Below, one piece after another: positions 5,050-50,415 of a stretch of 64,000 nucleotides of DNA. The position numbers and the translations under genes are program-made. Position 1 is the stretch's first letter. Each line of letters opens with the position of its first letter. The notes beneath the pieces are model-generated. The model worked only from the letters and a program-made list of their open reading frames with translations. It was not told where the DNA came from and made no database searches. The stretch comes from Aselliscus stoliczkanus (lineage: Eukaryota; Chordata; Mammalia; Chiroptera; Hipposideridae): NCBI GenBank assembly GCA_033961575.1, contig CM066729.1:96165001-96229000 (forward strand). Reading direction: 5' to 3'.

Positions 5050-5900
5050 AAGTAAGCCACTGGGTTCAGGAAAGTATTTGTATCCCAGGTCCTTTTCAGA
5101 GAGGCATGTTTTGTCCTGCCTCCTACTCCATGAAGGGTAGAGGAGGGCGAAAGGGTGAGCTGCTACCCATTTTCATTAGAGTGCGGTAAGGAGAGGGGAA
5201 TGTGGTCTACCCAAACTTCCTGAGGGAAAGAGGAGCTCTTAGGAGCAGGTGATATGTAATTGTGACCAAGAGGTCCAAGAGGAAGGGTTTTCCCTGCCAT
5301 TAAGCTAAGGGCCTACACACCCTTATTCCCCAATACTGCTTACAAAACTTTCTGGAGGCAACAAGGGGGAATTCTAGCTATATTATGCCCAGAGTACCTC
5401 AATCTAGCATACAGCTTTATAGAGCTGTGAAGAGTGAGGGAACAGATAAAAAGAGATTTTTAGCCATCTTCTGGGCTTGAAGGGTTTTGCTCAGTTAGCA
5501 ATGACCTGAAAATTGGTAATGTAAATGTTTTGTAACTTTATGGACAAATAAAGTGTTTTAACTATAGGAACATCTGAGTAGGGTCAAATAAAGGACCCCA
5601 GAATAAAACTGAGAGGGCTCTGTCAGGCTGCCTACAAAAGAGTGGCCATCTTTTAGAAACCAAAAGAGGAAATCTGTAAGAGCTGATCGACTCCTTCCTT
5701 TCCCTAAGCACAAATCAAAGAGTAGTGAAAGCCCTCAGCCTAGTGCAGTGCACAGAGAATCAAGTCTCCATTAGAAGAAACATTTATTGAGAAGGATTCA
5801 ACATCCTTGGTTGGTCCAGGATTGAAACTGAAAGATTGTTCTCACAGACGATGAGTTATCTTCAAAACTGCAAGGTTTTCTCTACAAGGAGTGAGTGATT
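5050..5900. other. 3' flank of SPATA31 copy A
   Basis: Sequence between the DNAJB remnant and the SPATA31 3' end. The part around 5,600-5,790 pairs with about 18,990-19,160 in block B (gtggccatcttttagaa/cggtcaccttttagaa, ctccttcctttccctaagca in both). An AATAAA-like minus-strand signal is plausible around 5,775 (tttattgag on plus). No separate gene is seen. Confidence 0.5.
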
Positions 5901-5924
5901 TCTTTGAAGAAACATTTTTTTCCC

Positions 5925-8900: not shown

Positions 8901-10275
8901 TTGGGATGGGGGCATGATTTAGGGCAAAGGTTGAGGATATCCATTGAGTTGGGGAAAAGAACATGGAAATGAGGAGGTTTTAGAGATTTTTGATGCTGCA
9001 TTTTCCCTGCAAAAGCATTACAGGTTCCATTAAATAAGACATAGTGAGACTCCCTTTGAGAACTACTTCCTAAAACCAGGAGAGTAGCCACTAGGGACTC
9101 CCTGTGCAAAGAAGGAAGACCCCAGAAGAACTGGCTATATTTCTGGTGCAAGTTTTCTCACAGAGTCTTGACATAAATGAATTTCTGGTCAGTGTGTTCT
9201 GGTATGTCTTCAATGTTCCAGCCAGTTTGAGGAGCTGTGGTATCCTGTACTTCAAGTGGCTGCAATAAAATTCATGAAGATGTCCATTGATATCCTGTCA
9301 CAAATGTTTTGAAGATGGTGTCTTATCCTTGTCTCCTCTAAAATCTGAAAAGCCGTTTTGTTTTTTCTTTGTCTCTCTAAGTGTGCCTGGATGTTAAGGC
9401 TAAGGAAAGAATGGCTCGTAGCCTCCTTGTGCTTTGTAACAGAGTCTCCCCAGAGAGAGGTCTCTGGGACGTAGAGAGAAACGTACTCTCACTGAAAATC
9501 AGAGTGTGATAATGTGGGGAGGAACGTGTTCTTGGCATGTGCCTGCCAGCAGGACAAGTCTGCAACTGACAGGTTGAATGGTCAGTGCCTCTGATTGTTG
9601 GGACGTAAGTGGACAATACACCAGGACTATGTCAAATGAGTCCTCTGGGACAGGCTTCAATAAGATGGAAATTGACTTAGATTAAGTCACAGTGAAAGTG
9701 CAATCTGGTGGTCATGAAATATACATTTGTGGGTTGTGATGACAAGCAAATGAATCAGAGGAATTCATTGTCTGATATAAACCTGGTAAGGAGTTGATAT
9801 CTTGGGAAAGGAAGGATCAAGTGAAAAAATGGTAATCAGAACAAAGTGGCCTGTGGTTGGACAACAGGACCCATGCCCTGAGTTCATGTGGTGCTGGAGG
9901 GGCAAAGGCAGGGGATTGGTGTAGGGAACGGTCCACTGGGGATTTAGATTTCAATGTAGGAAATGGTTCTGGTGGCAGACAGTGAGCTGGAGGTGAAGGT
10001 GAAAGAAACTCAGCTAAGGGGTCATTGGATCAAGAAAGGGAATTAAGGCTCAGGAAGAAGGGCAGGGGTTGGGTCTCTTGGTGGGACAACTGAGAAGGCA
10101 GAAGACAGAGTGAATGATGACTCAGTCATAGGAGCTGTGGAAGCCAAAGGGGACAGAGAGGGAGTGGAACCTCCCAGGGCCTCCTGGGACAACAGCCGAT
10201 TGGCCTCAGCAGTTGCACTCTTACAAAATTCACATGCGGACTCTGGGCATAACAATTGACAAAAGCGCATGATAT
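5925..10275 (-). pseudogene. SPATA31: SPATA31 (FAM75)-family gene copy A, large exon, degenerate
   Basis: SPATA31 proteins are long, testis-expressed, fast-evolving proteins whose main exon encodes most of the chain. Reading the minus strand from the right, colinear family blocks appear: a Ser/Pro-rich part (10,270-10,040, STPSLSPLAS); a segment ending ENLHQKYSQFFWGLPSLHRESLVA (9,240-9,080), whose signature is FWGLPSLHxESLVA; NLGNIPGKNPEASL (about 8,310); QVLEAHIIRF with RWHLTLKV (about 7,770-7,720); SCDILTTRELGSS (about 7,120); and a 217-codon C-terminal frame (6,618-5,965) with IRHPQKTVGFNYQQL. Stops and frameshifts between blocks make it a pseudogene as read. A SINE sits inside the exon at 7,861-7,986. 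The order and spacing match one ancestral exon of about 4.2 kb. Confidence 0.88.
7861..7986 (-). mobile_element. tRNA-derived SINE inside SPATA31 copy A
   Basis: Minus-strand element with a GGCCAGCCGAGTGGCG head, a B-box-like GGTTCGGGTCCCAC segment and an (A/C)-rich tail seen on plus as tgtttgtttg repeats. It is flanked by a perfect 15-bp target duplication, atcattgtgtttttt, at 7,846-7,860 and 7,987-8,001. The same family occurs at about 44,364-44,498. Insertion separates FPDPNTRQVLEAHIIRF from the upstream part of the exon, so it disrupts coding. It is absent from block B, so it postdates the duplication. Confidence 0.9.
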
Positions 10276-10279
10276 CGTG

Positions 10280-11225
10280 ATGCTGGCCTAGGGGGCCACA
10301 AAAGACAGGAGTTATGAAGCTACAGCGAGGACCACAACAAATATACAGGACCTTGGGAAGTCTGACAAAGGTAGAGACTCACACTGCATACCATCTTTTC
10401 ACATCCCCCTTAATTTCTCAATGTATGTTTTTATCCCTCTCCCAAAGACTTTCACAATCTGACTAGGGGATTTTCCCTCCCATGTCTATCCCAGGCTTCA
10501 CTGAGGTGCTCGAAATTCATAGACTGTGCTAAGAAAGGCTTATAGAAATAAGGGGGTAATGTTTAATCACCCTTGCAAAAGAGCAAGCACCTTCTTTGCC
10601 TCCTCTACTTCTCTCTGGTAAACTCTTCAATCTGGGACACAAGAAGAGTGATGAAGGTAGAAGCAAAGTGATCTTAGAAGGCTAATTAGAATGTTCTTTA
10701 GAGGTACCCTTGGAGGTTGGACTTGGAAAGTCTTAAGTGTTAGATTACAAGGTCACATGGTCCATGGTAATAATAGGCTCAGGCAAAAGTTTTCTCATTC
10801 ACATAAGGCTTTCATACATATTATCTCATGTGACTTTCAAAAACCACCCTATGAGGAACACTGGTCTATCTCAAAGAGATTATCTCAAAGAAGAGCCTGA
10901 GTCCCAGGAAGCCAAAGTATGTTTCCAACGTCAGTAGACAAAAGTTCTGAGTCTCAACATCTCACATGGCCACCCTTTGGGCAATGCCCATTGCCCAGGT
11001 CTGTCACTGCTTCCTTCCCTGCTACAGCCAAAGCAGGGAACCTGAGAAGTGTCTCAGGGTCTGACTGCCTTCCCATGAGCCTCTCCTCTAAGGGCTCCTG
11101 TTTTCTTAGAGGATCTGTAGTTAACAATAAACATCCTCAGAAACCATGACCTTGGAACATCATTGAAAAGGGATGAAGGGTCATCCTTGGAGAACTCAGG
11201 TAGAGTAGGCAGAACCCTACCTGCC
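10280..11225 (-). other. intron and upstream part of SPATA31 copy A
   Basis: Non-coding sequence that pairs with about 32,600-33,560 in block B. It includes an old MIR-like segment (about 10,790-10,890). No exon with a convincing frame is visible here. Confidence 0.5.
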
Positions 11226-14599: not shown

Positions 14600-15160
14600 A
14601 TATACGGTTTATGGTTTTTCCACAATTTTACATATTTGGGAACAAATACATTTTTTTTAATACACCATTCACTGTTTTTCTGAATTTTATATGACCTCTG
14701 AGATTTCTGCCTTTGAAATCCACAGCTTCCCTCACTACCACACCCAGACCCCAGAAGTGTGCAATGCAAATTGAAAATGGTTGTCTCTGCTTCTGTCCCT
14801 GCAAGAAACCTAGGAGGCTCTGCACACCGAGCATTCTAACACTGCCACATGAGGTTACAAAATGCTGGAGAGCAGCCCTCCCCTCCAGAAATTTTTTTTT
14901 TTAATTATACACAGTATAAAACAAACACTAAATTGAAGATATTCACAGCATAGAACCCCTGATTTCTTTCTTACCTGGTGCAGCCAGGTTGTCCTTCTTC
15001 TGGGGTTCTGAATTGTGAATTGCTTTGTCAGCACTTCCTCTACTCTGCCAGCCCCTCACCACTCCTCCAAGGATTTCCATCTTCCCAAAACGTGTTGATG
15101 TCTTTTGTCCTATGCTCACCCTTTCTTATCATTCTCAAACACTCTTTTTTAAATCCTGCA
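14600..15160. other. no gene seen
   Basis: Short overlapping ORFs only. No domain, splice structure or repeat family recognised. Confidence 0.3.
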
Positions 15161-15164
15161 CTTG

Positions 15165-15960
15165 TTTTAACAGCTTTATTGAAATTATACTTCACATACC
15201 ACACAATCCTCCCATTTAAAGTGTATAATTCCATTTTTTTCACATTCATAGACATGTGCATCATCACAGTCAATGTTAAGATATTCATGACTTCAAAAAG
15301 GAACTTCATGACCTTTAGCTATCATCCACCTCTTCCCTCTCTCCCCAGGCCTAGGCAATTGCTAATCTACCTTGCCTCTGTAGATTTCCTTATGTGGACA
15401 TTTCATATGAATGGGATCATGTGTGGTCACCTGTGACTGGCTTCATTCACTCAGCATAATGTTTTCAAGATTCATCCATGTTGTAGCATGTATCACTATT
15501 TTTTATTGCCAAACATGTCACATTGTATGGATATACCATGTTTATTTACCCATCCATACCATTATTTACCCATCCAAATGTCCAGTTGATGGACATTTGG
15601 CTTATTTCCACCTTTTGACTCTATGAATAGTACTGCTAAGAATATTGCTTTATAAGTTTTATGTGGACATGCTTTCATTTCTCTTGAATATATTCTTAGA
15701 AGTAGAATTGCTGGGTCATAGGGTAACTCTAGTTGAACATTTTGAGGAAGCACTAGAATTTTTGCCCAAGTGGCTGCGCCATTTTTCATTCCCACCAGCA
15801 TTGTATGAGCTTTCTACTTTCCCCACATTCTCAGTGACATTTATTATCTGACTTAGATTCTAGCTGTGTGTGCGCGCATGCGGGCACACGCTTTCTTGCA
15901 GTAGTTCTGATTTGTATTTCCCTGATGGCCAATGGTGTTGAGCATCTTCTCATTTAATCC
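15165..15960 (-). mobile_element. ancient L1 (L1M-type) 3' region
   Basis: The plus strand shows the antisense order typical of old mammalian L1 3' regions: aacagctttattgaaattatacttcacata, then gtgtataattcc, then cctaggcaattgctaatcta. After that come ggacatttcatatgaatgggatcat, cattcactcagcataatgtttt, gttgatggacatttgg and attgctgggtcatagggtaact. The ORF2 end is therefore to the right. Diverged and non-coding. Confidence 0.88.
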
Positions 15961-15964
15961 CTTA

Positions 15965-17175
15965 CTTTTTGTGGCATTTTGGGAAGCATTGTGTTTAACT
16001 CAACACACAATAGCTCATTTTAATGTGTGACATGAAAGTATTTTCTTTTAAATATTAGAAAACATATATAGCAATACCAAGTCCTATTAACATTTATAGA
16101 TGTCTCCTTTTATACTTTTCCCATGTTAGTATAGCTATTGAGTGATTAATGGACAGCAATATTGTACACTGGGTTCGCTCTGTAAGATTATTTCTTGGGT
16201 GGACTTGAGTGGAAAATTCACTCAAATGACTCCTCGGTTTGAGTAAAAGACAGAACAGGGCTGATTGCCAAAGCATCTAGGAGCTCCATGCTTTGTCATC
16301 ACCAGTGTTTTTTCCATCTGTGCTGTGTAAGTGTGTTCCACAGGTGAGAAATATCAAAGTAATGTGAGAACTTTGACATGGGCACTGAGCATTTGATTGC
16401 GAGTGAATGGCAAGATGCTTCGATGGGCTTTCCCCCTTTATTGTAGTGTAAAAAATGGGATGTGTCACACAGGCAGATGATAATTGGGAAAGTTGGGTGG
16501 GGCTACATGGGAAGATATACTTATCTGTCTGGTCTTGTGCATGTTTAAATGTTTCTGTAATAACAAGATTTTAAAAAAGAAAAGATGTAGGATGCCTCCT
16601 AAGAACAGAGGGTAGTGCAAAAGCATTCCTGTGGAAGCACATGAGCCCCCCCCAAGACTAGAGTTTATCTATTCCTCAGTAAGGTGATTTCAGGAAGTTT
16701 CTTTTTTTCTTTTTTTTCAGGTGAGGAAGGAAATCTCTTTCCATATAAAAGGAAGGAAAAAGGAAAGGAAGAAAATGAAATTGTTTTTTTGAAGTGTTTT
16801 GAAAATTTCACATCTTATGGCTTCTATCTCCTCTGTGAACAGTGGTTCAGCACATCTGTTGAGCAAGTGGAGATGGCCTCAGTTTGAGGAAAGTGAATGA
16901 GATTTGAAATAAGTTTGAGTAGCAATGGAGAGAGAATGGACTCAGGAAACTGTAACCTAAGCGCCATTTGTTCTCTTCACACATTAGTAAGCATGGGATA
17001 ATGATTTGTGGAATGAATGATTTCCAGATAGTTCTAGAGCTGAATTGTTCTGGGTATGAGTAGACTCGAATATGGAATTTAATCCAATAGTGATCAGTTA
17101 CTTTTAGGAAGGCATCTCCCTGTTGCCAATCAGGGAGAATTAAATGGAATTGGAAGGGGCCCATTTGTAGTGGTG
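15965..17175. other. no gene seen
   Basis: AT-rich sequence with short ORFs, a T-rich tract near 16,705 and a (C)8 tract near 16,648. No family recognised. The left edge of block B homology appears near 17,180. Confidence 0.3.
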
Positions 17176-17984
17176 CTTTTAAGTGTTGGTTACCTGAGAG
17201 ACTATCAGGCTTACCTGAGACAGGGAGGAAAACAAGAGCATGGATTGACAGGGAGTAAGTGGGAAATGAATGAAGTAGAGTTTATAAATTAACAAGGGCC
17301 ATATAAGCTGGAAGGATGGGGGTTGAGGCCAAAGCTTGCAATGTATTCTGTATTATTCCAGATGGCAGGGGTTTCCTGGTAATAAGCTCTATAGTGTGGA
17401 AGCATCTGCACTGGAATGAAAGTAAAGGACCCTGAGATGGGATTGATGTAGGACATGGGAAGCTGAGTTATTGCCTGCTCCATCCACATGGATGTTAAAG
17501 ACCTCCACTACCTTTCCACCTCTTTGAGTTCCTGCCATGGGCCCCAACCCACCTTTGGTCTTTCCCCGGGTCTCCACAAAATCTGCACTTCTTTTTGTTT
17601 CCCCAAACTTTAGACACTGTAGGGTCAATGGCATAGCTTGGGATAGGAAGATAAAAGTGTGGTAGTGAGAGAGGGCTGTGGTGGACATCGGTTTTGTTTG
17701 TTTTTGTCTTTACAGGATACATATGTCATACTGGAAAAATGACCTCAAGTGCTTTGTGGGATGCTCACTCCATTTTTGAGTCCCAGTCTGTATAAGTGCA
17801 GCTGCCTTCCTTTAGACACCTGTTGTAAGGGTGTGTATGTGTGCAGTCTTGGCTAATGAGAGCATTCCATGGATGTCCATGGTGAGCCGCCAAATATCTG
17901 TAACCCTGGAACTCACCTCTGATCATGAGCTACAGGTGTTCTGGGCTCTACCCAGATTGGTTAGGGCTCCACCATGGCCGTGAA

Positions 17985-18460
17985 TATCAAAGGTGATACC
18001 TCCATCCTGAGAGCTGAGTGGTACTCACTAAGGGCAAGGTCTTGTATATTTCCATCAAGCATGGTTGGAGGGAAGGCACCAAGATCACCATCCCCAAAGA
18101 CAGGGATGCCATGCCTGATGACATCCTGCAAATATCGTTTTCCCACTCAAGGAAGAGCCCTGTGCCTGTTTGGTCTAAGGCATCAGCATGCTGTGTGGTG
18201 TTTTGATCAGCCTCAAGCAGGTGGAGCTTGGATCAGACTGAGGAAGCTGGGAATAAGACAGGGTCACATTGTGGGGATGATGAGGGATAAAACTTTGTTC
18301 CACTCACAAGATCATTCTTCCCGCTCACCCTTTGTTCTTACTATCCCACTCACTCTAAGTCATCTTTTCCTTACTCTCAGCTTTTTCTTACCCTGGAAGG
18401 TAGGTGGCTGCCTGGTCAACATTCCTACCACTGACAGCTGAGTGATGCTTATGTTTGCAA
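17985..18460 (+). pseudogene. DNAJB-family (Hsp40) C-terminal domain remnant, copy B
   Basis: Better preserved than copy A. A plus-strand frame reads GKVLYISIKHGWREGTKITI and PKDRDAMPDDI (18,020-18,120), which matches the Hsp40 type II motif KxLxIxIKxGWKEGTKITF followed by xEGDxxPDNIPADI. After a frameshift it continues as IVFPLKEEP and ISLKQ, then CLVNIPTTD at about 18,410, equivalent to CTVNVPTLDG. A spacer of about 160 bp separates ISLKQ from the CLVNIP piece and starts at a CAGGT junction, so an intron position seems preserved in both copies. That argues for genomic duplication rather than retrotransposition. The J domain is not seen. The exact DNAJB paralog is uncertain. Confidence 0.65.
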
Positions 18461-18469
18461 AAAGAAAAA

Positions 18470-19200
18470 AAAATGTCATCAATCTGACAGTCTGAAGAAA
18501 TACCTACGGACAGAAACTACTTTGCCAAGGTGACTTTCCAGGAGGGAAACTTCAGTGTCAGGTTTAAAGGATGCTTTCCCAAACCATTAACATGGCCCCA
18601 TGAGACAGACTTGTAAGCAGCATTGGTGCTGTTTCAAGACCCAGCCCCAACCAGCCCTGGATCCACTGGACAATGTCCACCCCAAACACACCCACTGAGA
18701 ATTCACCGTCCTTGGGATCCTCATTACTGACTTCTCCATAATGATGAAACTGCTGTTTCTTCTTCACTGATACTTCCTGAAAATATACCTGTGCTCGACT
18801 ATTTTCAAATACAGAAGGCCTGTCTCCCCACTGCCCTAAAGGATATACAGCATCCATGAGGAGAAGGTGTGGGCTGATGTACATGGTCACTGAGACTAAG
18901 GTAAGGGGCAGGAGACACAGCCCGTCTCCTCACACTTCACCAGAGATGATATGGGCTTTGAGGGACATTTTATCTATTTCTCAGCTAGAGCTGCACGGGA
19001 CCGGTCACCTTTTAGAAGCCAAAAGTAGCAATCGATAAGGGCTGAACACTTAACTCCTTCCTTTCCCTAAGCACAAACCCTGAGTGACCCAAAACCCATG
19101 CACCCCACACAGTGCACAGCAAAAACATCATTACTATTAGAGAAAAGTTTATTAGGGAAAATCAACATTCATCCCAAGGGATGAATTACTTGGGGGTGGG
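18470..19200. other. 3' flank of SPATA31 copy B
   Basis: A minus-strand 108-codon frame (18,564-18,890) is unrecognised. The part from about 18,990 pairs with block A (5,620-5,790) and leads into the SPATA31 3' end. A minus-strand AATAAA-like signal is possible at about 19,150. No further gene is seen. Confidence 0.4.
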
Positions 19201-19289
19201 GAAATGTTTTCCCTGGAAGTTCTGGAGATGAATTTTCTGTGTAAAACGCAGAGACATATCACTGAGAGCAGTGCATTCAGCAGTGGTGA

Positions 19290-22268
19290 GAAAGAGTAGC
19301 CTGAGGCTCAGGCAGCTTGATGTGTGCAGCTGGGGCTTGGATGGGGCAGTCCCTGTGAGACCCAGATTGGCGGTGCTTCTGACTGACTGAATAGCGGCTC
19401 CAGAAATACTGCAACTTTATGGGGTTGTCTGTCTTTCTAATTTTGGCACTCCGGCCAGTGCTTCGATGTGCCACTGTCTCCCTCTGAGGCTGAGACTGGG
19501 GGAGTTCTGATGTAATAGCTGCTTAAACCATGCAAACTTCTGGGGTCTCTCTTATTTGTACAATCCTTAAGAACTCTGGCTGTGGCTTCGATGAGCCAGT
19601 CTCATGGTGGGGCCCCAGTTGGAACTGCTTCTGACAGAATAGCTGTTCCACAAATGCTGCAACTTTCTATGTTTGTTGATGTCTCAGATATGTGCACTAC
19701 TTGGAGAATGCTGGTTGGACTTTGGATGGGTCAGTCTCTCTGTGGGGCCTTGGTTTTCAGTGCTTCTGGTAGAACAGCTGCTCCATAAATGATGCAACTT
19801 TTCGGGGTTGTCTGTCTTTATCTCTGATTCATGCATTACTTGGAGCACTCCGGCCTGTACTTGGATTGGTCACCATCTCTCTATGAAACCATATTGGGGT
19901 TGTTTCAACAGGATACCTGCTTAACAACGCAAATATCAAGGATTCTTTCTGATTTGTGCAATTATTGAGAATTCTGGCTGACTTGCATGAGTCATATTCC
20001 CATTGGGGTCCCAGTTGGGGGTCCTTCTGACAGAATAGCTGCATCATAAATACTGCAACATTTTGGTGTCTTCTGTTTTGTCTCGATATGTGCACTACTT
20101 GGAGAACTCTAGCCAGGCCTTGGATGGGCCAGTCTCCCTGTGAGGCTCCAGTTTTCGGTGCTTCTGCCATTTGAGCTATTCCATAAATGGTGCAACTTTC
20201 TGGGGTTATGTGTGATTATCTCTGATTTGTGCATTACAAGGAGAACTCAGTCCCTTGCTGGGATGGGCCACAGTTTCGCTGTGGGACCCCAGTTGGTAGA
20301 GCTTCTGACAGAATAGCTGCTTAAATGATGCAAATTTCAGGGCTGTCTCTGATTTAGACAATTCTTGAGAACTTTGGCTGGTCCTGGGATTGCCATAGAC
20401 TCCCCCTGGGATCCCTGTTGGCAGAGCTTCTGACAGAATAGCTTCTCCATATGCAGCTTTCTGGGGTTGTCTGTTTTTGTCTTGCATACGTGCACTACTT
20501 GCAGAACTCTCACCAGGCCTTGGATTGGCCAGTCTCCCTGTGGAGCCCCGGTATTTGGTGCTTCTGACAGAATAGCTGATCCATAAATCCAGCTATTTTC
20601 TTTTTTTGTCTCAGATATGTGCACTACTTGGAGAACTCTGACAGGTTCTTGGATGGGCCACAATATACCTGTGGGGTTGGGTTGGGGCTGCTTCTGACAG
20701 CATAGCTACTCTGTAAACGGTGCAATGTTCAGGGGTTGTCAGTCCTTGTCTCTAATTTGTACACTACTTAGAGAACTGTCACCAGGGTTGTATTGGCCAG
20801 AGTCCCCTAGTGAGGTCCAAAATGGGGGCGCTTCTGACAGAATAGCTGCTTAAATGGAATGACACAAATTTGAGGTGTTTCTCTAATTTATGCAGGTCTT
20901 CAAGAACTCTGGCTAAAGTTCAGATGGGCCACAACGTCACTGAGGTTCCCTGGCTAGGGAGCTTCTGACAGTATATCTCCACCATAAATGATGCAGACTT
21001 CTGGGGTTGTCTGTCCTTGTGTCCAATTTCTACACTACTTGAGAAACTCTGGTTGTGTTTTGGATGGGACCATCTGATGTGGGCCCGAGTTTTCAGTATT
21101 TCTGACAGATTATCTCTACCGTAAATGCTGCAGAGTTATGAGGTTGTGTGTCTCTTTCTCTGATGTGTGCACTACTTGGTGCAATCTCACAGGGGATTGG
21201 ATGTGCCACAACCTTTTGGAGAAGCACATATTGGGGATGTATTCATTGAATAGAACCTCCATAAAAGCTGAACTTTCTGGGGTTGTCTGTGTTTGTCTCG
21301 AATATGTGAACTACCTGGAGACCTGAGGCCAGGGTTGTATGGGCCAGACTCATCCTGTGTGGTCCAGATTGGTGGCACTTCTGACAGAATACAGGCTTCA
21401 CTGTTGCAGATTTCAGATGCTGTCTTTGATTTGTGCAAGTTTTGGATAGCTCTGGCTGATGTTTGGATGGGTTACAGTCTCACTGAGGGGCCTGGTTGGT
21501 GGTGCTTCTGAAAGCATAGCAGCTCAACAAAGGCTGAAAATCTCGGGGTTTGTCTGTCTTTGTCTCTGATTTGTGCACTATTTTGAGCACTTCCCTTGTG
21601 TTTAGATGGGCCACAGTCTCCTTGTGAATCACAGATTGGGGGACTTCTGACAGAATAGCTTCCCGTAAATGTTACAATGGCCTGGGGTTTTCTGTTCTTG
21701 TGTCTGATACGTGCACTACTTGTAGATCTCTGCCAAGGCCTTGGATAATCCAGTCTGCCAGTGGAGCCCGGGTTTTGGTGCTTCTGACCAAATAGCTGCT
21801 CCATAAATGCTGCAACTTTCTAGGCTTGTCTGTCTTTGTCAGTTTTTCATGCACTACTTGGAGCCTCTGGCTGGGGTTGGATGGGGCACAGTCTCTGACT
21901 GAAGCCCAGTTTTGGTGTGTTCTCACTGAGTTCCGCTCTCTCAATGTTGCTACTTTCTGGGGTTGTCTCTCCTTGTCTCTGATTTGTGCACTACTTGGCG
22001 AACTCTGGCTGTTTCTGGCATGGGCCATGCTCTCCCACTCGGACCCCTGTTGTGAGGCTACTGACAAGAATAGCTGCTTAAACAACGCAAATTTCAAGAG
22101 TTGTCATGATTTGGGCAATTCTTGGAGAAATTTGGCTGGGGCTGGATGCGCCACAGTCTCCCTGAGGGGCCTCGATTAGGGGTGCTTCTGACAGAAGAGC
22201 TCTGCATAAATGCTACAGCTTTCTGGGGGTTTCTATTTTTGTCTTTAATTTCTGCACTAGTTGGAAAC
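19290..22268 (-). repeat. tandem array of ~135-bp (45-codon) repeats derived from the SPATA31 C-terminus, left part
   Basis: About 22 units counted from the anchor cttctgacagaatagctg (plus strand), spaced mostly 125-141 bp with a mode near 135. Other shared blocks are gctgcaactttctggggttg and gatttgtgcactacttggag. Read on the SPATA31 (minus) strand, one frame gives a 45-residue repeat with RDKxRQPQKVA, then QLFCQKHP. This resembles IRHPQKTVGFNYQQLCWSHHP in copy A. The first unit (19,310-19,435) aligns with copy A at about 6,030-6,150 (cttgatgtgtgcag/cttgatgtatgcag, atggggttgtctg/ttggggatgtctg). Units carry stops and frameshifts; the longest open stretch spans about three units (21,672-22,097). 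Confidence 0.9.
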
Positions 22269-23500
22269 TGCGAGAGGCCAGCCCCCGCGAGGACCAGGGA
22301 TTCCCTCGGGTAGGACGAAGTTGGCGAGGAAAAAGAAGAGAGAAAGAAAAGAAAGAAAAAAGAAGAGAGAAAGTGGAGACACCCGAAAGAGTTTTGCAGG
22401 AGTGTCACACTTTACTGTTACAGCATGTCCCTTTTATAGGGACTCTTTACCAAAATCACAAGTCACAAGTTACGTTTCACATGAGTTTGGTGTTTTCTAT
22501 TTCCCAGGATTTTCACAGTCTTTACTTCCCTGTAAGTGTTCTCTCCAGGGTGCACTGTGACTTACTCTTCCGTTAAAGGATTACCTTGTCTTTTACTATG
22601 ATAACGTCTATGAGACCCAGACCCAGTCTCTGCCTTTCATCCAAAGAATGTTTATCATGACTATCTTATGTTAAGGATAGACTTATCTCTATATATCGCC
22701 TAAAGAGTGATTACCATGACTACCTAGCAATTACCCCAAATTCCAGCAGCTAGATTCACTTGAGGGCGTATACTTGAGTTATTACTAAAAGACTAGCAGT
22801 GGCTGAGTTTAGGGTAAAAGCATCTAAAGTATATTCCTAAGTAAATACAATACATAGCAGCCAAAGGGGTCTCACACCTCTCTTATCCTGCGGAGGTAGC
22901 ATCTGTTTCTCAGTCAAAGCTTCAGTATCTGTTGCTGCAACAAGGCACAAGGTGAAAGAATTCAAACAAGGCTGTTGATTAACATACCCCAAGGTCAGCA
23001 AGTCGCCTCTTACCAGAACTCTTCATGGCCTGGAGACCTTTAATCTCCAAAGAGACTTTTCACAGCAGTGGCTCAAGGACTGATGTTATCATCAGCTTCT
23101 CACAGGCAGGCTGTCAGTTTCTCACAGACAGGCCTTTGTCCTATGTGGCCAGGGGTCTGAGCCTCTGTTTCCAAGAGGCTTGAGTCCTCAATATCTCAGT
23201 TCAGGGGTCCCTTCAGGCTGTAGCCTGTATTAGGTAATTAGGTAGTTCCTTTTTTTTTTTTTAGGAAATCTTGCCCCGTCATTGACTTACACAGCCATCT
23301 CTCATTGGGGTACCACAGGAACTTGCCACAAGTGCAGTGAAAGTACTGTCTCCTATAGGATCTGATGTAGAGGAAAGGCACATGGGTTCACAGAGGCAGG
23401 AAATATTACATGACCAAACATAAGGCAGCACCTCAAACATCCAGTGCTGAGCATGGCAATGTGACCTTGTCAGACACTGGGAGGCTGTCGGCCCTCAACA
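22269..23500 (-). mobile_element. solo LTR (probably class II ERV) inside the tandem array
   Basis: A 1,232-bp element begins TGTTGAGGGCC and ends CTCTCGCA on the minus strand, with TG/CA termini. A TATAAAAG box lies at 22,431-22,438 on the minus strand, upstream of the purine/pyrimidine-rich 3' part. The target-site duplication is approximately tggaac: tggaaac on the left (one extra base) and tggaac at 23,501-23,506. Removing the element rejoins a normal repeat unit (ttggaacaccc...catgagg). No internal retroviral genes are seen, so it is a recombined solo LTR. Family name not assigned. Confidence 0.88.
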
Positions 23501-24890
23501 TGGAACACCCCAGCATGAGGTTTGGATGGGCCAACGTCTCCCCATGAAGCCCAGTTCTGGGTGTTCTGACAGAATAGCCTCTCCACAAATGCTACAGCAT
23601 TCTTAGTTTGTCTCTTGTCATCTCTCATTTGTGCAACTTGGGGTGCTCTGGACGAACTTTGGATGGGCCACTCTGCCCTGGGGCCTGTGTTTTTGGTGCT
23701 TGTCAGAATAGCTGCTCCATAAATGCTACAACTTTCTGGGGTTTTTTGTCTTTGTCTTTAATTTGTGGACTACTTGGAGAACCCTGGCATGAGGCTTGTA
23801 TGGGCCAGCGTCTCCCTGTGAATTACTGTTCCGGGTGTTCTGACAGAATAGCTCTCCAAAATGCTCCAACATTCTTGGGTTGTCTCTCGCCATCTCTCTT
23901 TTGTGCAACATGGGGAACTCTGGGCGAACTTTGGATGGACCATTCTGATGTGAGTCCTGTGTTTTTGTTCTTGTGACAGAATAGCTGTTCCATAAATGCT
24001 AGAACTTTTTTGGGTTGTGTGTCTTTGTCAGTTTTTCATGCACTACTTGGAGCACTGAGGCTGGTGTGGATGGGCCACAGTCACTCTGTGAAGCCCAGAA
24101 TGGGGGTGTTATCACAGAATGACCATTCCATAAATGCTGCACTGTTCTGGGGTTTTCTGCTATTGTCTCAGATATGTGCACTGCTTTGAGAATTCTGGTC
24201 AGGGTTGGATAGATCAGATTTACCCTGTGAGGTTTGGATTGGGGTGCTTCTGACAGAATAGCTGCTCTGTAAATAGTGCAACATTCTGGGGTTGTCTGTC
24301 CTTGTCTCTGATTTGTGCACTACTTGGAGAACTTTGGCCAGGTTTTGGATGTGCCAGTCTCATTGTGGGACCCCGGTTTTCAGAGCTTCTGCCCAGATAC
24401 CTGATCCATAAATCCTGCAGCTTTCTGGGGGTGTCTTTCCTTGTCTCTGATTTGTGCACTACTTGGAGCACCTAGGCTAGTGTTTGGATGGGCCACAGTC
24501 TCTCTGTGGGGCCCAGATTTGTGGCGTACTCACTGAATAGCCACTCCATAAATGGCGTATCTTTCTGGGTTGTCTGTCCTTGAATCTGATATGTGCACTA
24601 CTTGGAGAACCCATGCAGGGTAATTGGATGTGCCACAATCCCCCTGTGGGCTCCTGTTCAAGGTGCTTCTCACAGAGTACATGCTCAAATGCAGCACATT
24701 TCTGGGGTTTCCTCTGGTTTGTGCAATTCTTGGAGAAGTCTGGCTTTGGCTTGCATGGGCCACAGTCTCCCTGAGGGGCCCTGTCTGGGTACTTCAGTCA
24801 GAATGGATGGTCAATAAATGCTGCAACTTTCTGGTGTTGTCCCTTGTCTCTGATTCCGTCAATACTTGGAGAACTCTGGCCAGAAATGGC
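23501..24890 (-). repeat. tandem array of ~135-bp (45-codon) SPATA31-derived repeats, right part
   Basis: About ten more units of the array, anchored near 23,557, 23,702, 23,839, 23,974, 24,112, 24,250, 24,388, 24,530, 24,669 and 24,798. The spacing is mostly 129-145 bp. The right end dissolves into single-copy SPATA31 coding sequence at about 24,890-24,960. Together with the left part this gives about 32 units. Confidence 0.88.
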
Positions 24891-26118
24891 AGCTTTCTCT
24901 TGCCATGACCTTGTATTTGTCACACTACAGCAGTGTGCCCTCAAGTTGCGAGTAGACCCCTGAGCTGGGGCCCTGCCTGGACCTGTACTTCTCTGCCTTC
25001 TACTGAGCTTTCCCAAACTTCACTTGGGATGAAAGACACTCTTGAGAGCAGAGGATATCTGCTGCATGCCAACTCCCCAGTTTCTCCCGTAGGTACCTCC
25101 CAATGCTTGTCCTGACTTTCTGATCTCTGGTCGTCCCAGGCAAGGCAGCTCCACCTTGATCTGGGCATCTGCTGTGTGCACATGATACTGGGCTGCCCTT
25201 TTCATGGATGTTTCCCTGGTTTTTGTTTTCTGTCTCAATATCAAGACAAGGAAAAGAGCATCTCATTGGTTTTTTAAATTGTCTTTCAGGAGCAGACTGC
25301 CCCTTCTGTGACATGGCCTGGAAGACTTGCTCCCAAGCACCTCCTCTAATGCCATGTCCTGAGTAGGAACATTCTTTCTTCTAGGTTGGGATGTGGGGCC
25401 TCGAGGACTCACAAACCTTCTACCTGGTGGAGTAATCTTCTTCTGATAACACCCTAAGACCAGCTTAGGTCCCCGAGGCTCCTTCTGCTTCTCCCTACTG
25501 ACCCCTCGGTCCTCCACATGGACAGGCCACCCTGGGAAGTGCCCATGTTTACACTGGAGACATCGCAAGCCTGAGCAAGGCGGTCTTTGTGAGTCAAGCT
25601 CTCTGAGGCAATGGACATGTCCCTGGGTTGGCCTTGGTCCTCGTTCACAGTTATCCCATGGGAGAGTCCCAGCTTGCTGGTTGTCAGGATGTCACTACTT
25701 TGTAAGTGATGAACATTGAGCTCCTCAGCCCCGGTCATCTCTCCAGACAAGGGAATGGAAGACAGGTTCTGAACTGTTCCCTATCTATTTATCTGTTGCA
25801 GTTCTCCTGTATTACTGGATAGTACACTCTTATCCTTTGCATCCCATCTGACCCTAGCTCTGCATGGGGACTTTGGCAAGGATGCTTTGTTGCTGGAATC
25901 AGTCTGTGACTTGTTTTCCTTATGATATTTGTGTGATAGCCAGAAGATGCTGTCTGGCATCCCTTATTTTCTGAATGGTGTCTGCAAACCCATGGTGGAT
26001 ATCAGAGGGTGGACTCAGGGCTCCCTGTCCTTCATTGCCCAAGTGCGAGGTGACAGGGAGAAGATGGTACAGATGGAGGGTAAATAGGCCTGTCCCACTT
26101 TGTCTCCATGAAGACAAA
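24890..26118 (-). pseudogene. SPATA31: SPATA31-family gene copy B, C-terminal part of large exon (left of provirus)
   Basis: Minus-strand frames carry family blocks colinear with copy A: LQSSDILTTSKLGLSHGITV (about 25,690, like SCDILTTRELGSS in A); GPKLVLGCYQ (about 25,460), matching the family pattern SKLVxEE; and FKKPMRCSFPCLDIETENKN, then YLREKLGSWHAADI (25,260-25,060). That last pair corresponds to the family segment IKQFFQWIFSKKK...GQMLDEKMSLCHAxHA. The reading frame is broken by shifts. The left end merges into the tandem array, and the right end is cut by the provirus target duplication at 26,113-26,118. Continuation is at 30,528. Confidence 0.85.
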
Positions 26119-26744
26119 TGTTGCTTCCAACCTGACAGAGCAGTGGGAGTGGATAAAGGAAGGCAAAAGTTTAAGAAAGAGAGAAACACGAATAAGAGGA
26201 AAATACAGTTGGTGCCACGGGACTCAAGCCTCATGGACTGAGCCCCGAATCAGGCCTGACTGCTCCTTTTATTGTGTCACACATAAGGAAAGATCAATGT
26301 ATCTTGTGTGGTCTGTGAGTCTCATACCAGAGAATTTAGCTCAGGGCCAAATCACCCATGCCTGCAGGCTGCCATTACAGAAGGTCCCATGATGTTATTA
26401 TCATGGACCTCCTAAGAGACAGAAACTTCCTCTGCGGGAACTTACTGATAAGAATGCAATGAGGACAGGTGTTATCACATCATTAGGTCATTTCACAGGC
26501 AGGCTGTCAGAACCTGAAAGAAGGGGTCTATGCCCTTTTCCCTCAACTCCGTGATTCCTCCTATGGCTCCCATGCGACTGTGCCTGTCTTAGGTTATTCC
26601 TCCCTTTCGGGACCCTACCTATCATTGACTAACCAGCCATCTTTTGGGGCCAAGTAGGGATATAGAGTGTAGGCATAATATTGAAGTAATGATCTGTCTT
26701 TATGGATAGGTGCATGGGGGCAGGCAGCCTATCGTGTGATGACA
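26119..26744 (-). repeat. 3' LTR of the provirus
   Basis: 626 bp, beginning TGTCATCACACGATAG on the minus strand and ending GCAACA. Pairs base for base with 29,899-30,521 apart from scattered substitutions and small indels. CAATAAAAGG on the minus strand near 26,263 may serve as TATA or poly(A) signal. Confidence 0.95.
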
Positions 26745-26759
26745 TTTCCCCTTTTTTTT
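26745..26759 (-). promoter_or_regulatory. polypurine tract for plus-strand priming
   Basis: Minus-strand GAAAAAAAAGGGGAAA directly abuts the TGTCAT start of the 3' LTR, the position expected of a retroviral polypurine tract. Confidence 0.9.
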
Positions 26760-26950
26760 CTAAAGTATGAGAAACACAAATCTTGCAGATTTTTCATTTA
26801 CTGCCTGTTGGAGGGCTGCTTGTCTTCTGCTGAGGATTAAACATAGAACAATAAACACAACATCCATAGCATCAGCAAACCCTCCACCCAAAGTTTTTAT
26901 CCAGTTCACAGGATTTAAGGTAGAAAGTTCATCTGCAGCGAGAGACTGTC
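26760..26950 (-). pseudogene. env: env transmembrane-subunit C-terminal remnant
   Basis: A minus-strand frame reads LNPVNWIKTLGG, then a hydrophobic span of about 17 residues and a short basic tail (SRRQ), with a stop just before the polypurine tract. This is the layout of the end of a betaretroviral Env transmembrane subunit. The rest of env is missing, so no envelope protein can be made. Confidence 0.75.
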
Positions 26951-26999
26951 CATTCTAGCAGTGGTCACTGGAGGGCGCTCTGACCCCGGGAACCGTCTC

Positions 27000-27400
27000 A
27001 GCCATCGCTGTAGTCTCTTGTTTTTGATTGAATCCCGGCGGGCTGTTGCTCATAGTAAGGTTTAATGCACCAACTAGGTACCCACAAAGGACGTTCTTCT
27101 GGGCCTAGAGAATTACAAGCAAAACCTCTTCCCCATAGATTAATGGGAATGTCAGCAATGTGGGGTTGTAAAAATCCTTTTTGTCCCTCAGGTCCGAGGC
27201 AAGGAAAAATGCAGACACTCTGGCGTAAATGAAGCTCAGCTCACCCCAACAATATCAATGGTAGGCTCCTAGACTTTCCAGTTTTGTGGCCATTCCTGAT
27301 AATTAATTATTGACACATCTGCACCAGTGTCTAAAAGATCCATAAACTTTTTGCCTCGTATCTCAATTTGACAAACTGGGCGAATTTCTGAAATTTTTTC
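27000..27400 (-). pseudogene. pro: retroviral protease remnant fused to a displaced pol/env-junction piece
   Basis: The protease active-site motif LLDTGADVSII is readable around 27,300-27,335, with an in-frame stop about 20 codons later. A protease-end segment (INLWGRGF, about 27,130) runs almost directly into PLWVPSWCIKP (about 27,085), which resembles the end of betaretroviral integrase. The rest of pol therefore appears deleted between them. The second assignment is tentative. Confidence 0.7.
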
Positions 27401-27760
27401 TGCTAGAAAAATTCCTATTTGACTGGTGCTTCCAAATCCTCCCTTCCCTCTCTTTTGAGTTTTTTTTTTTTTTTTTTACCTGGGATAACATATGGAAATA
27501 AAAGTAATGGTGCAAACTGTCTCCCTTTTTTGCTGACCAAGGAACAGATGAGAACATTACAATTTGAATTTCTCTTTCATGATCAGAATCAATGATACCA
27601 GTATGAACTAAAACTCCTTTCGATGTCAGGTTAGAACGACCAAGGAGAAGTCCAACAGTATTTGGAGAGTGTGGTCCAAAGATGCCTGTAGGCACTTGTA
27701 ATGGACTCTCACCAGGTAGCAATAAAATGTCTTGTCTTGAGCAAAGATCTATCACAGCAC
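27400..27760 (-). pseudogene. betaretroviral dUTPase domain remnant
   Basis: A minus-strand frame of about 100 codons reads IDLCSRQDILLLPGE, VPTGIFGP, VGLLLGRSNL and GVLVHTGIIDSD, the ordered motifs of the dUTPase encoded at the start of the pro ORF in betaretroviruses. The motif carrying the uracil-pocket residues (HTGIIDSD) is readable. Frame loss occurs in a poly-A tract near 27,460-27,478. Confidence 0.9.
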
Positions 27761-27779
27761 TTCCCTCCGTTGCTGGAGT

Positions 27780-29460
27780 TAATTGCTGTACTGAATGCTT
27801 GGGGGAGGAGGCACAGCCTGGTAATTCTGAGGCACTGTTTGATTCATGTATGCCCCGGTTGTTGTTGGAGCCTGGGGCTGGCCCCTCCTCCCATTTCCCT
27901 GAAGCAGAGTGCCATCCTTATGAAATATGGATTTACACTCAGAGGCCCAATGATTTCCTCTTTTACATCTTGAACATAATCCAGTTTGTATTGGTCCCGC
28001 AGGTGTAAAAACATTAGATGGTTGGAAACCGGTTTGATTCTTGTTTCTACACTCTTTTCTGTATGACCATTTTTTCCAAAATTGTAGCAGTTGCCAGAAA
28101 ACTTTTTCTGTCCAATTGTAATTCCTGCCATAGCTTGAGCCAACACATTAGCTTTATATTGTTCTGTCCCAACCTCCAAACAAATGTAACCAGTCAGATC
28201 CGTCTTTCCTTTCATATTCCAGTAGCCTTTTTACAATCTTTATTGGCATTATCATAAGCAAGAATTTGTTGAATTACTTCAGTAGCTCGCGTATTAGCAA
28301 CCTGCTTTTTTACTGCATCTTGTAAACGAACCACAAACTCAGTGTAAGGTTCAGTAAGACCTTGTAAAATTTTGCTGAAAGAACTGGTGGTTTTTCCTTC
28401 TGTTTCTATTTTTTCCCATGCATTTTAACAAATCCTTCTCAGCTGGTCAATGGCCTGATTAGTCATTCCTATTTGTTGATGAGAACCTTCCCAATCACCT
28501 CTTCCTAATATTTGATCTTGATTAATATTAACGTTGTGGGTCTGGTTATGCCTGCTTTGAGTCTCTGCTCCATCAATCCACCAAGTTTTAAATTGTAAAA
28601 ATCGAGCAAGTGAAAGACAGGTCTGAGCCATTGTTTGCCTATCGATAGGAACTAATCTATATCCATCAGCCAAATTTCGCACAATGCCCATTGTGTATGG
28701 TGAATTAGGGCCATACTGTGTTACAGCTATTTTTAATTCCTTAAGGATTTTAAAAGGTAAAGCATCATATTCATTTTCAGAAACTCCTTGCAGATGACAA
28801 ATCAGTACAGATCAGTACCAGGAACAATTTGCTCCCTAGTAACTGCTGGAAAAGCTAAGGCTTCTAAATCACCTTCTAGGCATGCTTGTCTAATTCCTCT
28901 CTCTACCATAGAAAGAGTGGCCCTTATATTTAGAGTAGGAATACAGGCATCAGAAAGAAAGGGATGATTTTTTCTAATCTGATGCTCTCTGTTTGTAAAG
29001 GAAGGCAGGGGTGAGTGCTGATGAAATTCCCCCAATGATGGATACAAAGATCTTGGAGCCTCAATAGAAGTTTCTGTAATTCCTCTCTGTCTTTCCTCAA
29101 ATTCCTGTTCTTCATCTCCATCTTTTGACCTGGGATTGTCCTCCTCATCCTCTTCATCTTCTGTATCGGTCTGTAGAGGTTCTAACACTGACCGAACTAA
29201 TCTCCATGTGTCTCAAATTGTTACTGGGATTAAAACTCCATTTTGATGCAACGCCTAGTGATCTGTACCCAGCCTTTTCCAAGTATTTAAATCTAGGGTT
29301 CCTGTGTCAAGGAACCAGGAGTAATATGTCTCAATCACAATTAAAAGTTCTATTTTCTCTCTGAGACTCATGCTCCCCTAGCCTTAAGAAGCTGATGAAG
29401 CAGACGGATGTAAGGCTGATACTTGCATTGACTATCTGTGTTTACCAGATAGTCAATGTT
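27780..29460 (-). pseudogene. gag: gag remnant (matrix, capsid, nucleocapsid)
   Basis: From right to left: a matrix-like start (DTGTLDLNTWKR near 29,290) with an in-frame stop; an acidic linker DEEDEEDNPRSKDG (about 29,120); a capsid N-terminal segment (MGIVRNLADGYRLVPIDRQ, about 28,690-28,430); and nucleocapsid zinc knuckles near 28,085 and 27,965. The first knuckle, CYNFGKNGHTEKSV, has lost two cysteines. The second, CSRCKRGNHWASEC, keeps the CX2CX4HX4C pattern but lies in another frame. Several stops and shifts; non-functional. Confidence 0.9.
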
Positions 29461-29876
29461 TTTCTTAAGGATAGAAAAGAAAATATCATTTAAACTTCTT
29501 CACTCTGATGCTTGTCTGACCGTGTTCCTCACAGAAGTTTAAGGTCAGTCTTGGCTAAGGTGTGCTCGTTTAAATCCTGGGCCTGGTAGACACCGTTCCT
29601 CATCAGGAACAATGCCTAGTCACCATTTTGCCTTATGATTTGACTACAGAATCACAGATTGGAGCCCACACAAGTTCTGTAGCTGAGGCCGTGGAACTAT
29701 AATCAATCACTCATTCACACTCATTCATATGAAAAGTTAGTATTTTCATCCGTTACCCTGATTAAATTTCCCAACACTTGCCCTACCTCCAAACCAGGTA
29801 GTTTGCTCGCAACACCGTCTCAAGCCTTTCCACCTCTGTACCCCTTTTTCTGACTGATAGTCCTACTTCCTTCTCC

Positions 29877-29896
29877 GGCCCCACAGTTGAGCACCA
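29877..29896 (-). other. retroviral primer-binding site, tRNA-Lys type
   Basis: Minus-strand TGGTGCTCAACTGTGGGGCC starts two bases after the 5' LTR. It matches the tRNA-Lys(1,2) site TGGCGCCCAACGTGGGGC apart from two C-to-T changes and one inserted base. Lysine priming is typical of ERVK/betaretroviruses. Confidence 0.85.
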
Positions 29897-29898
29897 TT

Positions 29899-30521
29899 TG
29901 TCACATCCAGCACAACAGAGCAGTGGGAATGGAGAAGGGATGGCGAAAGGTTAAGAAAGAGAGACACAAATAAGAGCAAAATGCAGTTGGTTCCAGGGGA
30001 CTCAAGCCTCATGGACTGAGCCCTGAATTGGGCCTGACTGCTCCTTTTATTGTCTCACACATAAGAAAAGATCAATGTATCTTGTGTGGTCTGTGAGTCT
30101 CATACCAGAGAATATAGCTCAGGGCCAAATCACCCATGCCTGCAGGCTGCCATTACAGAAGGTCCCATGATGTTATTGTCATGCACCTCCTAAGAGACAG
30201 AAACTTCCTCTGCCAGAACTTACTGATAAGAATGCAATGAGGACAGATGTTATCACATCATTAGGTCATTTCACAGGCAGTCTGTCAGACCTGAAAGAAG
30301 AGGTCTATGCCCTTTTCCCTCAACTCCATGATTCCTCCTATGGCTCCCATGCGACTGTGCCTGTCTTAGCTTGTTCCTCCCCTGAGGAACCCTACCTGTC
30401 ATTGACTAACCAGCCATCTTTTGGGGCCAAGTAGGGATATATAGTGTAGGCATAATATTGAAGTAATGATCTGTCTTTATGGAAAGTTGCATGGGGGCAG
30501 GCAGGCTATCGTGAGATGACA
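29899..30521 (-). repeat. 5' LTR of the provirus
   Basis: 623 bp, TGTCATCTCACGATAG at the start and GGATGTGACA at the end on the minus strand. Differs from the 3' LTR by scattered substitutions; by eye identity is roughly 90-95%. Confidence 0.95.
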
Positions 30522-30527
30522 GACAAA

Positions 30528-32560
<2,033 letters not shown>

Positions 32561-32599
32561 GGTTGTTTTATTGCATACCTGCTAGAAGGGGTCTGGACC

Positions 32600-34280
32600 T
32601 AACTGTTGATGAAAGGGGGTGGTACCATGATGCTGGTGCAGGGGGCTGAAAGAGACAGGAGGTACAAAGCTAGGACCAGAGCAAAGAGAGGACCTCTTAA
32701 AGGCCCTGTGTCGATGGGGCCCCCTGCAAGAAGCCTGCTGCCCTTCACATTGCTCCACATCCCTGACTTCACAATATACTCAATAGCATTCACCCCAGGC
32801 CTTCATGTCCATCCCTGTTCCTATGGCTACTCCACCCTATAACTATGGAAGGCTGCACCAAGGGAACATTGAAAAGAGGGGAAGAATAGTCACCATCTGT
32901 GGATAGAAATCAGCCACTTTGTCTCCCTTCTGCCCTCCAGTAATATGTCCAACCTGGGAAGTCAGGTCAGTTATGTGGGATGAAATAGAAGCATAGGTAC
33001 TATGCAGGAGTCCCTCTATGGGAGATCATTGTGATATTATACTATGAAAGCCCCAAGAATCAGTTGATGAAGTGAAGTGGTCCATGATAATATGAACAAG
33101 GTTCCCATGTGTCTATTGCTTCATTTGTAAAGTACTTTCAAAATATGATCTCATTTGATGCTTAAAACCAATCTGTGAAGCAGAGAGGTCAGTGGTTATG
33201 TCAGAGAGGAATGTCATCACCCAAGCATTCACAGTACTTAAACAAAGTCCAGACACAGAAGTCTCAGTCTTGACATTGATTGGGCAATTTCTCCTGCTCA
33301 GGTCCATCACTGCTCATGCCCAGGGATGGCAGAGCAGGGGACCTGAGAAGTGACTCAGGGCCTGTCTCCCTCCCCATGAGCCTGTCCTCTGACAGCTCTG
33401 TTTTCTGAGAGGAGCTGTATCTAGCAACTAATGTCCTCAGAGACCATGGACCTGAGACCTCATGGAAAGGACAGAAAGGGTCACCCTTGGAGAGCTCAGG
33501 TGAAACAGGCAGAACATGACCTTTCTGTGACCCACCTTTCCTTCTCCTCTTGGCTCTGCCCTGGTGCTAAGAAAAAGAAGAGAATCATTTCTGTCACTTC
33601 TCTCCATAGAAAACTCAGACATTCATGATCCAAGAAAAACATTACTGTATTCTAATTACTAGAACTTTGTGTTGCTTCTTTTGATCCATTTTTTTTTCTG
33701 TTCTAAATGGTTTCAATTTTTCCTTCTATGTAAAACTCAATGAAGGATTTTGTCTATGAGGCCCACACTTGGTATTCTCAGTCAGAAGTCCTCTGCTCAA
33801 GGAGGGCGGAGAATCCCAGGCCAACAGTCGCATCTCTGCTCCCTCAGACAGGATCCCATAGCCTGGGGCCGAGCTCAGGCTCCAGCCTCTGCTCAGAGGC
33901 TCTCAGAGGCTCAGCTCCGCTCTCCTGAGCAGCCCAACACAGAGGAAGGCTCACTGGAGTGATGCCTGAATGAGAATATGACTCCTGATGAAGTACTGGG
34001 GAACTCGATTCTCCTGCAGAGATCCCAAACTCCCTGAATAACCCAAGCTGGGGCCAGGAGATCATTGTTTGGGGTTTGATCCTGGAATCAGTCCTCTACC
34101 ACACCCACATGGCCTGTGAGCTTTCAAGGAAACGGTCTCATCTGAGCTCTGAGCTTGGCCCAGCCTATTCTCCTAGAAGGATGTTCTGTTCTCTGACTTC
34201 CCACCTCAGGTGTTACCCTAAGTCAGCCATACTCATCTTAACAGGTGGGACTAGAAATGAACACAACACTAAAGAAAATC
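32600..34280 (-). other. introns / upstream part of SPATA31 copy B
   Basis: Pairs with 10,280-11,225 in block A over several stretches and contains the shared MIR-like segment (33,100-33,200). A GC-rich piece at 33,780-34,060 keeps a 73-codon minus-strand frame rich in Glu/Ala/Leu but is not recognisable. Small SPATA31 exons 2 and 3 could be here; I cannot place them. Confidence 0.4.
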
Positions 34281-49485: not shown

Positions 49486-50367
49486 GCTAGAATTGGGAGA
49501 CAAAGAAACATAACACAAATAAAAGAACAGAAGAAACTTCCTGAATCAGTGGAAATAGAGGAAATAGAGGTAACCAACCTATCGGAGACAGAGTTAAGAA
49601 CACTGATTATTAGAATGTTCAAGGAAATTAATGAAAATATAAAGGAAGATAGAGAAATCATGAAAAGCAACCAGCTAGAACTTAAGAACACAACTACTGA
49701 ATTAAATAACAAACTTGATGGAATCACTAGCAGATTGGATGAAGCAGAAAATTGAATCAGTGACTTAGAAGACAAAATAGCAGAGATCACCCATGTGGAA
49801 CAACAAAAAGAAAAAAGAATGAAAAACATGGAAAATAGTTTAAGAGAGCTGGGGGACAACATCAAATGCAATAACCCACGGGTCATTGGAGTACCAGAAG
49901 GAGAAGAGAGGGAGCAAGGGATTGAGAATATATTTGAAGTAATAATGTCTGAAAACTTCCCTAACCTGGCAAAGGACACTGAAATACAAGCCCAGGAAGT
50001 GCAGAGAGTTCCAACCAGGATGATTCCAAACAGGCCCACTCCAAGACACATTCTAGTGAAAATGGCAAGGGTTAAGGACAAAGACAGAATCCTTAAAGCA
50101 GCAAGGGAAAGGCAGCAAGTTACTTACAAGGGTACCCCTATTAGATTATCAGCTGACTTTTCTACAGAAACTTTGCAGGCCAGAAGGGAGTGGCAGGAGG
50201 TTTTCAAAGTGATGAAAAATAAAGGCCTACAACCAAGATTGCTGTATCCAGCAAGGTTATCATTTAAAATCAAAGGTGAGATAAGGAGCTTTGCAGAAAA
50301 GAATAAGTTAAGGGAATTCATTACCACCAAGCCAGCTTTGCAGGAAATGCTAAAAGGGCTTCTTTAA
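49486..50367 (+). pseudogene. L1 ORF1 (ORF1p RNA-binding chaperone), start lost and one stop
   Basis: ORF1p forms trimers that coat L1 RNA. The frame opens after a stop at 49,483 and reads RIGRQRNITQIKEQKKLPES. The usual start methionine is not visible, which suggests a mutated ATG near 49,480. A coiled-coil part (EIEEIEVTNLSETELRTLII) is interrupted by TGA at 49,753-49,755, where related elements have Arg (a CGA-to-TGA change is likely). The frame then continues to 50,367 with the RRM and C-terminal domains intact (VKMARVKDKDRILKAARERQ, YKGTPIRLSADFS, LYPARLSFKIKGE). Forty-eight bases separate it from the ORF2 ATG. Confidence 0.88.
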
Positions 50368-50415
50368 GTAGAAGAGAAAAACAACCTAAAAAAGACTACG
50401 AACACAAATAACAAA

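Follow-up and report, generated by a model that had tools for sequence, protein, structure and literature searches.

How did a segment of a coding exon come to stand in about 32 tandem copies, and was the gene still being read as protein when this happened? The question arises from a stretch of 64,000 nt (the window), in which a first-pass annotation had described a coding minisatellite of about 32 copies of a 45-codon segment of the SPATA31 C-terminus with a period of about 135 bp, expanded in frame in a working gene and later decayed.

Structure of the array and its unit

An iterative profile search of the window (nhmmer) found head-to-tail units spanning 19327–24889, all in the same orientation. 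When the search hits were cut in the phase of SPATA31 and the consensus was built and translated, the array (19331–24880, minus strand) comprised 32 units of 124–142 nt within 19331–24881, as the earlier copy number had it. The 142-nt unit reaches a few bases into an insertion, and the interval spanning this insertion was left out of the count. In form the array is minisatellite-like, with head-to-tail units in one orientation at a single locus. In an arbitrary phase the unit lengths had a mean of 134.8 nt and a median of 137 nt, the commonest being 140 nt (6 of 32) and then 139 nt (5 of 32). The arbitrary-phase consensus was 140 nt, from which the period would not be a multiple of three; this was rejected once the units had been cut afresh in the phase shown by the single-copy paralogs, which gave a consensus of 141 nt, that is 47 codons rather than 45, open across tandem copies. 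Single-copy loci have the two halves of the unit in an order which indicates that the first unit consensus was circularly permuted. No unit is exactly 141 nt long in the SPATA31 phase (0/32), and lengths divisible by three were found in 9 of 32 units in this phase and in 7 of 32 in the arbitrary one; when decay was simulated from a 141-nt founder, a 141-nt consensus was recovered in 24 of 24 runs. Tandem Repeats Finder, which the annotation had proposed as a check, found a period of 139, but it covered the array in part only (23704–24676, 7.0 copies), presumably because of the divergence of the units, whose mean pairwise identity is 0.655.

The insertion that splits the array is an element of ∼1.2 kb (22269–23500, no strand assigned) with the ends TG...CA, by which we regard it as a putative solo LTR. 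A second copy, 76% identical, lies in another piece of the genome (L042:1510–2625), at a different place from the array.

Origin of the unit in the SPATA31 family

The array unit is a coding segment of the SPATA31 C-terminal exon, on the minus strand, as the annotation had recognized. The genome of 2.19 Gb in which the window occupies C3:96165001–96229000 was searched with the unit consensus, and very common words were skipped, so that the list of matches is a lower bound: at least 51 matches were obtained, 27 inside the array and the remaining 24 distributed over 19 loci on C2, C3, C5 and C10. Thirteen of these 19 loci were checked by tblastn and all 13 match bat SPATA31 proteins; the remaining six lie 3.3–3.4 kb from matches to the domain PF15371. 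The phased array profile found a full unit in the sister loci, paralogs other than copy A (see below) being matched at E down to 4.7e-37, and two units in L048, L049 and L050, and a wider profile added the two-unit loci L055, L056 and L058 (L049, L055, L056 and L058 are absent from the consensus match list; L049 and L054 were added from the PF15371 matches). Across 139 compared positions the array consensus shows zero indels relative to the second units of L048 and L049, and the first units of these two loci are one codon longer (48 versus 47 codons).

The annotation had also named what would overturn this identity, a better match of the unit to a known satellite or transposon. Apart from the tandem form itself nothing speaks for an unrelated element of that kind having entered the exon, and a dispersed element with many copies outside the host gene family did not appear in the genome search. 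Each of the 19 outside loci in the lower-bound list falls at a SPATA31 gene or domain match, and the unit can be aligned collinearly with intact coding frames. A hidden abundant satellite may escape a search that skips very common words and gives an incomplete list; even so, we regard this origin as extremely unlikely.

The paralog with which the unit had originally been aligned, copy A, is a more distant SPATA31 member on the minus strand (5640–11222), placed by its DUF4599 match (10130–10294, within a 111-aa open frame), by collinearity and by comparison with the L049 frame, with which it shares 66% identity and against which it has 90 frameshift indels and 16 stops. The likeness had been put at about 6,030–6,150, and this position is right (6108–6167), but the match is weak, with E = 0.034 from a profile of 30 array units only; an E of 4.2e-8 came from a profile that already included copy A. 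The other paralogs are far better comparators for the unit.

Place of the array in a SPATA31 pseudogene

Copy B, the gene that holds the array, lies on the minus strand and is a pseudogene of the SPATA31 family (SPATA31D1-like). Its 3′ end beyond the array (19003–19330, minus) is collinear by blastn with intact and sister SPATA31 loci; the exon directly 5′ of the array in the gene sense (24881–26118, minus) is collinear with L039, L041, L045 and L052 and partly with L049; and the remaining 5′ part (30534–34194, minus) is placed by collinearity and by a DUF4599 (PF15371) match at 32483–32647 (E 4.0e-9, above the cut-off), which contains three in-frame stops. Positions 3–4180 of L048 align by blastn to 15219–19436 of the window, 5264–5744 to 25640–26114, 5755–7238 to 30534–32062 and 7350–9482 to 32090–34194. 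On the 3′ side L044 (324–5107) likewise aligns to 14616–19436, and from the other side L049, in which a FAM75 domain (PF14650) was found, is collinear with copy B at the DNA level up to 24688. Because collinear SPATA31 sequence flanks the array on both sides, the array occupies the place of the two units of the intact genes; its outermost units had been noted from the sequence at first to grade into exon sequence on either side.

The exon is interrupted by an endogenous retrovirus (26126–30521, minus strand) with an LTR pair at 26135–26744 and 29915–30521 that is 93.4% identical, and with open pieces on the minus strand at 27.4–29.2 kb. The divergence of its LTRs is far below that of the units, thus the provirus is probably younger than the array. 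Sequences like its LTRs also occur in L040, L041, L042 and L046. Elsewhere in the window, long open frames of 203, 900 and 411 aa lie on the plus strand at 49756–54248, which we take to be L1-like, and a GC-rich tandem repeat of 187–198 bp occupies 47009–47769 (∼3.8 copies at period 187).

Number of units in related loci and proteins

Units were surveyed in 26 pieces of the genome (L039–L064), some of which, where no unit was seen, may miss the place. Two units are present at six loci (L048, L049, L050, L055, L056 and L058) and one full-length unit in nine pieces from eight loci (L039, L040, L041, L042, L043/L044, which overlap and are one locus, L045, L046 and L052). A shortened single unit was found in three pieces (L047, L051 and L053) and a weak partial match in L061 and L063; the profile recognized no unit in six of the 26 pieces (L054, L057, L059, L060, L062 and L064), and more than two units in none of the 26 pieces surveyed outside the array. 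Both units are wholly in frame in L048, L049 and L056, and the second unit shifts the frame in L050, L055 and L058; the open frames of L048 and L049 run to 1352 and 1342 aa. The closest database proteins are SPATA31D1-like proteins of Hipposideros larvatus, Rhinolophus ferrumequinum and R. sinicus, and four of the five closest bat proteins (P0001–P0004, two from Hipposideros and two from Rhinolophus) have two units, the fifth (P0005) having one; the window itself presumably comes from a rhinolophoid bat. The annotation had known of no SPATA31 with such a C-terminal repeat. This needs qualifying, as a milder, two-unit form exists in the six loci and the four bat proteins, but none of the 26 pieces exceeds two units, and among the literature matches listed no title concerns a SPATA31 C-terminal tandem repeat.

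Several further members of the group were seen. L047, L051 and L053 form a SPATA31 group in which the single unit is without the same 27 nt; an open frame of 939 aa in L047 stops directly ahead of the unit. L054, also a SPATA31-like locus, has an open frame of 1288 aa, and no unit could be recognized in the piece examined. At G000:C2:29204127-29255341 there are five PF15371 matches with identical scores at a spacing of ∼12.75 kb, and a sixth at 29745018; this series probably represents SPATA31-like genes in a tandem cluster of recent origin.

Loss of the reading frame relative to the expansion

Copy B has no open reading frame through the exon. Compared with the frame of L049, 35 of its 45 indels are frameshifting and it has 8 stops; the intact L048, treated by the same method as a control, shows 5 frameshifting indels among 13 and one stop, hence a few of the lesions of copy B are background. 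An early lesion, a +1 at position ∼401 of the L049 frame, is present in copy B and in all five sister copies examined for it (L039, L041, L044, L045 and L052; L042 was left out), and it leads to the same TAA in copy B, L039, L041 and L045; L044 stops earlier after the +1, and L052 was not placed in the stop comparison. Because these five sisters share the early frameshift and each has one unit, loss of the frame most likely preceded the array. The +1 is also found, with the same stop, in L050, a two-unit locus of another branch, and it sits in a T run, so that it may be recurrent or have been spread by gene conversion. It is absent from the one-unit locus L046, which has a different lesion, and the L040 piece does not reach position ∼401. 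A −1/+1 pair near 2597/2627 is common to the same six C3 copies, copy B and the five sisters, and absent from L040 and L046; this pair is self-compensating. A −1 near 3243, present in copy B, L041, L045 and L052 and not in L039 or L044, is at odds with the tree and did not serve as a marker.

The divergence of the units at codon positions 1, 2 and 3 is 286/1420, 242/1432 and 275/1423 (0.201, 0.169 and 0.193), without an excess at the third position, and that of copy B and its sisters is also flat (0.163/0.162/0.159 with L052, for example), as is that of L049 and the broken L050; the open pair L048/L049 gives 0.125/0.158/0.169, and since even this open pair shows a slight excess only, codon-position tests have little power here. 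Of the 104 unit indels, 87 shift the frame and 17 have a length divisible by three; 11 of 32 units are free of stops in the native frame. The decay by stops and indels that had been described is therefore real, and the array is not a coding tandem repeat of open units in multiples of three, although its 141-nt consensus is itself open.

The alternative put forward at the outset, that in-frame expansion took place in a gene still making protein, which thereby gained a long repeat-rich C-terminus, and that the gene died later, would account for the open phased consensus of 141 nt, and intact genes already have two in-frame units to start from. An open, multiple-of-three consensus does fit such an expansion, but it only shows that the founder unit was unbroken, and an unbroken founder in a pseudogene gives the same. 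The frameshift of the five one-unit sisters, three of them with the stop of copy B, the flat codon positions in exon and units, the frameshifting majority of unit indels and the absence of more than two units from the 26 pieces surveyed all argue against it, and we consider growth within a working gene distinctly unlikely.

Growth of the array and divergence of its units

In a tree of the units the terminal branches are long, seven short units cluster with 97% support, and many other nodes are weak. The identity of neighbouring units (lag 1) is 0.644 against 0.655 overall; neighbours are thus no more alike than distant units, which points to little homogenization after a burst. One two-unit duplication was recognized, of the units at 23515 and 23653 relative to those at 23789 and 23925 (0.81 identity each). 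A higher-order A-B-B pattern in the unit tree (19456–20514) was weak and was set aside; within the first 16 units the identity at lag 3 is elevated, with 44 of 5000 permutations as high, for a lag and a stretch picked after looking.

The units differ from their own consensus by 0.188 on average, or 0.168 in the core away from gaps, and the copy B exon branch measures 0.093–0.12 against the five sisters with L049 as outgroup (0.167 in the shorter comparison with L040). The units have diverged ∼1.4–2 times as much as the copy B exon has since its split from the sisters. Unit indels amount to 0.023 per base against 0.012–0.029 in pairwise exon comparisons, and since the pairwise figures sum two lineages, an excess of indels in the units is less sure. 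The idea that misalignment inflates the unit divergence was rejected, as simulated decay at 0.023 indels per base, with an indel-length mix chosen by the analyst, gave no such effect. A low transition/transversion ratio (0.77) was likewise rejected as special to the units, since in the core a comparison of seven single-unit relatives with the consensus gives 29 to 54.

An excess of the units over the exon (0.188 versus ∼0.09–0.12) would also be expected of an array that predated the split, had the sisters since been reduced to a single unit through exchange between their outer units; the units would then merely seem to have changed faster. The edge unit u19331 is indeed the closest array unit to 17 of 17 paralog units, u24745 also stands among the single-unit loci in the tree, and the single-unit relatives fall in about three tree branches (L045; L040; and a clade of L039, L041, L042, L044 and L052), so that two or three contractions could suffice. 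This history is nevertheless fairly unlikely. No surveyed locus has an intermediate number of units, and 28 of 30 interior units (27 of 30 in the core) are farther from outgroup units than all seven single-unit relatives, a distance that should be independent of when the array formed; the comparison used seven outgroup units, and because the units are related the counts are not independent tests. Compared over their full length, the two edge units lie within the range of the relatives; in the core they slightly exceed it. It is quite possible, if somewhat short of probable, that the array state raised the long-term rate of substitution, perhaps also of indels, by ∼1.4–2 times over the adjoining exon and above that of the same segment in single copy. 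Repair of meiotic breaks is reported to be mutagenic (PMC7615360), and repeated breaks and repair within the array might, speculatively, be a cause.

Proposed history and comparison with known systems

In our judgement it is likely that a SPATA31 C-terminal segment was amplified by unequal exchange within a pseudogene, and that its units then decayed independently. The starting state would have been that of the intact family members, with a two-unit C-terminal tandem repeat of 48 and 47 codons; the frame would have been lost in the branch of copy B before the expansion, and the expansion would have followed the split from the one-unit sisters. Unequal exchange or replication slippage may then have multiplied the segment in place to ∼32 units, presumably as a burst with some multi-unit duplications, after which the units would have decayed each on its own, without visible homogenization and more than the surrounding exon. 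The solo-LTR-like element and the provirus were probably inserted after the array had grown.

The amplification is an ordinary kind of event, its source is unusual, and the rate effect is possibly of interest. These results suggest how, after the death of a gene, a long array may grow from a short coding repeat in a fast-evolving family of testis genes, and that an open consensus unit alone is no proof of a repeat protein. Should the more rapid change of the units be borne out, the same sequence can be compared as an array and as a single copy in one genome; and if the array state is what raised the rate, copy B and its single-unit sisters would form a natural experiment in which the effect of array state can be told apart from those of sequence and place.

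The present array is like minisatellites and coding tandem repeats in general in being a head-to-tail array that grew from a segment not itself repeated, and in having duplications of several units at once. It differs from minisatellites in general in that its unit is longer than usual and much diverged, and in that neighbouring units bear no sign of homogenization. Its closest unit relatives are the single-unit SPATA31 pseudogene copies (L039, L041, L042, L044, L045 and L052), whose flanks are collinear with copy B and which differ from it in having one unit only. The intact SPATA31D1-like genes (L048 and L049, and those of Hipposideros larvatus and Rhinolophus represented by P0001–P0004) carry the same segment in tandem at the same position of the gene; there it is present as two units in an open gene, whereas in copy B it has become ∼32 decayed units in a broken one.
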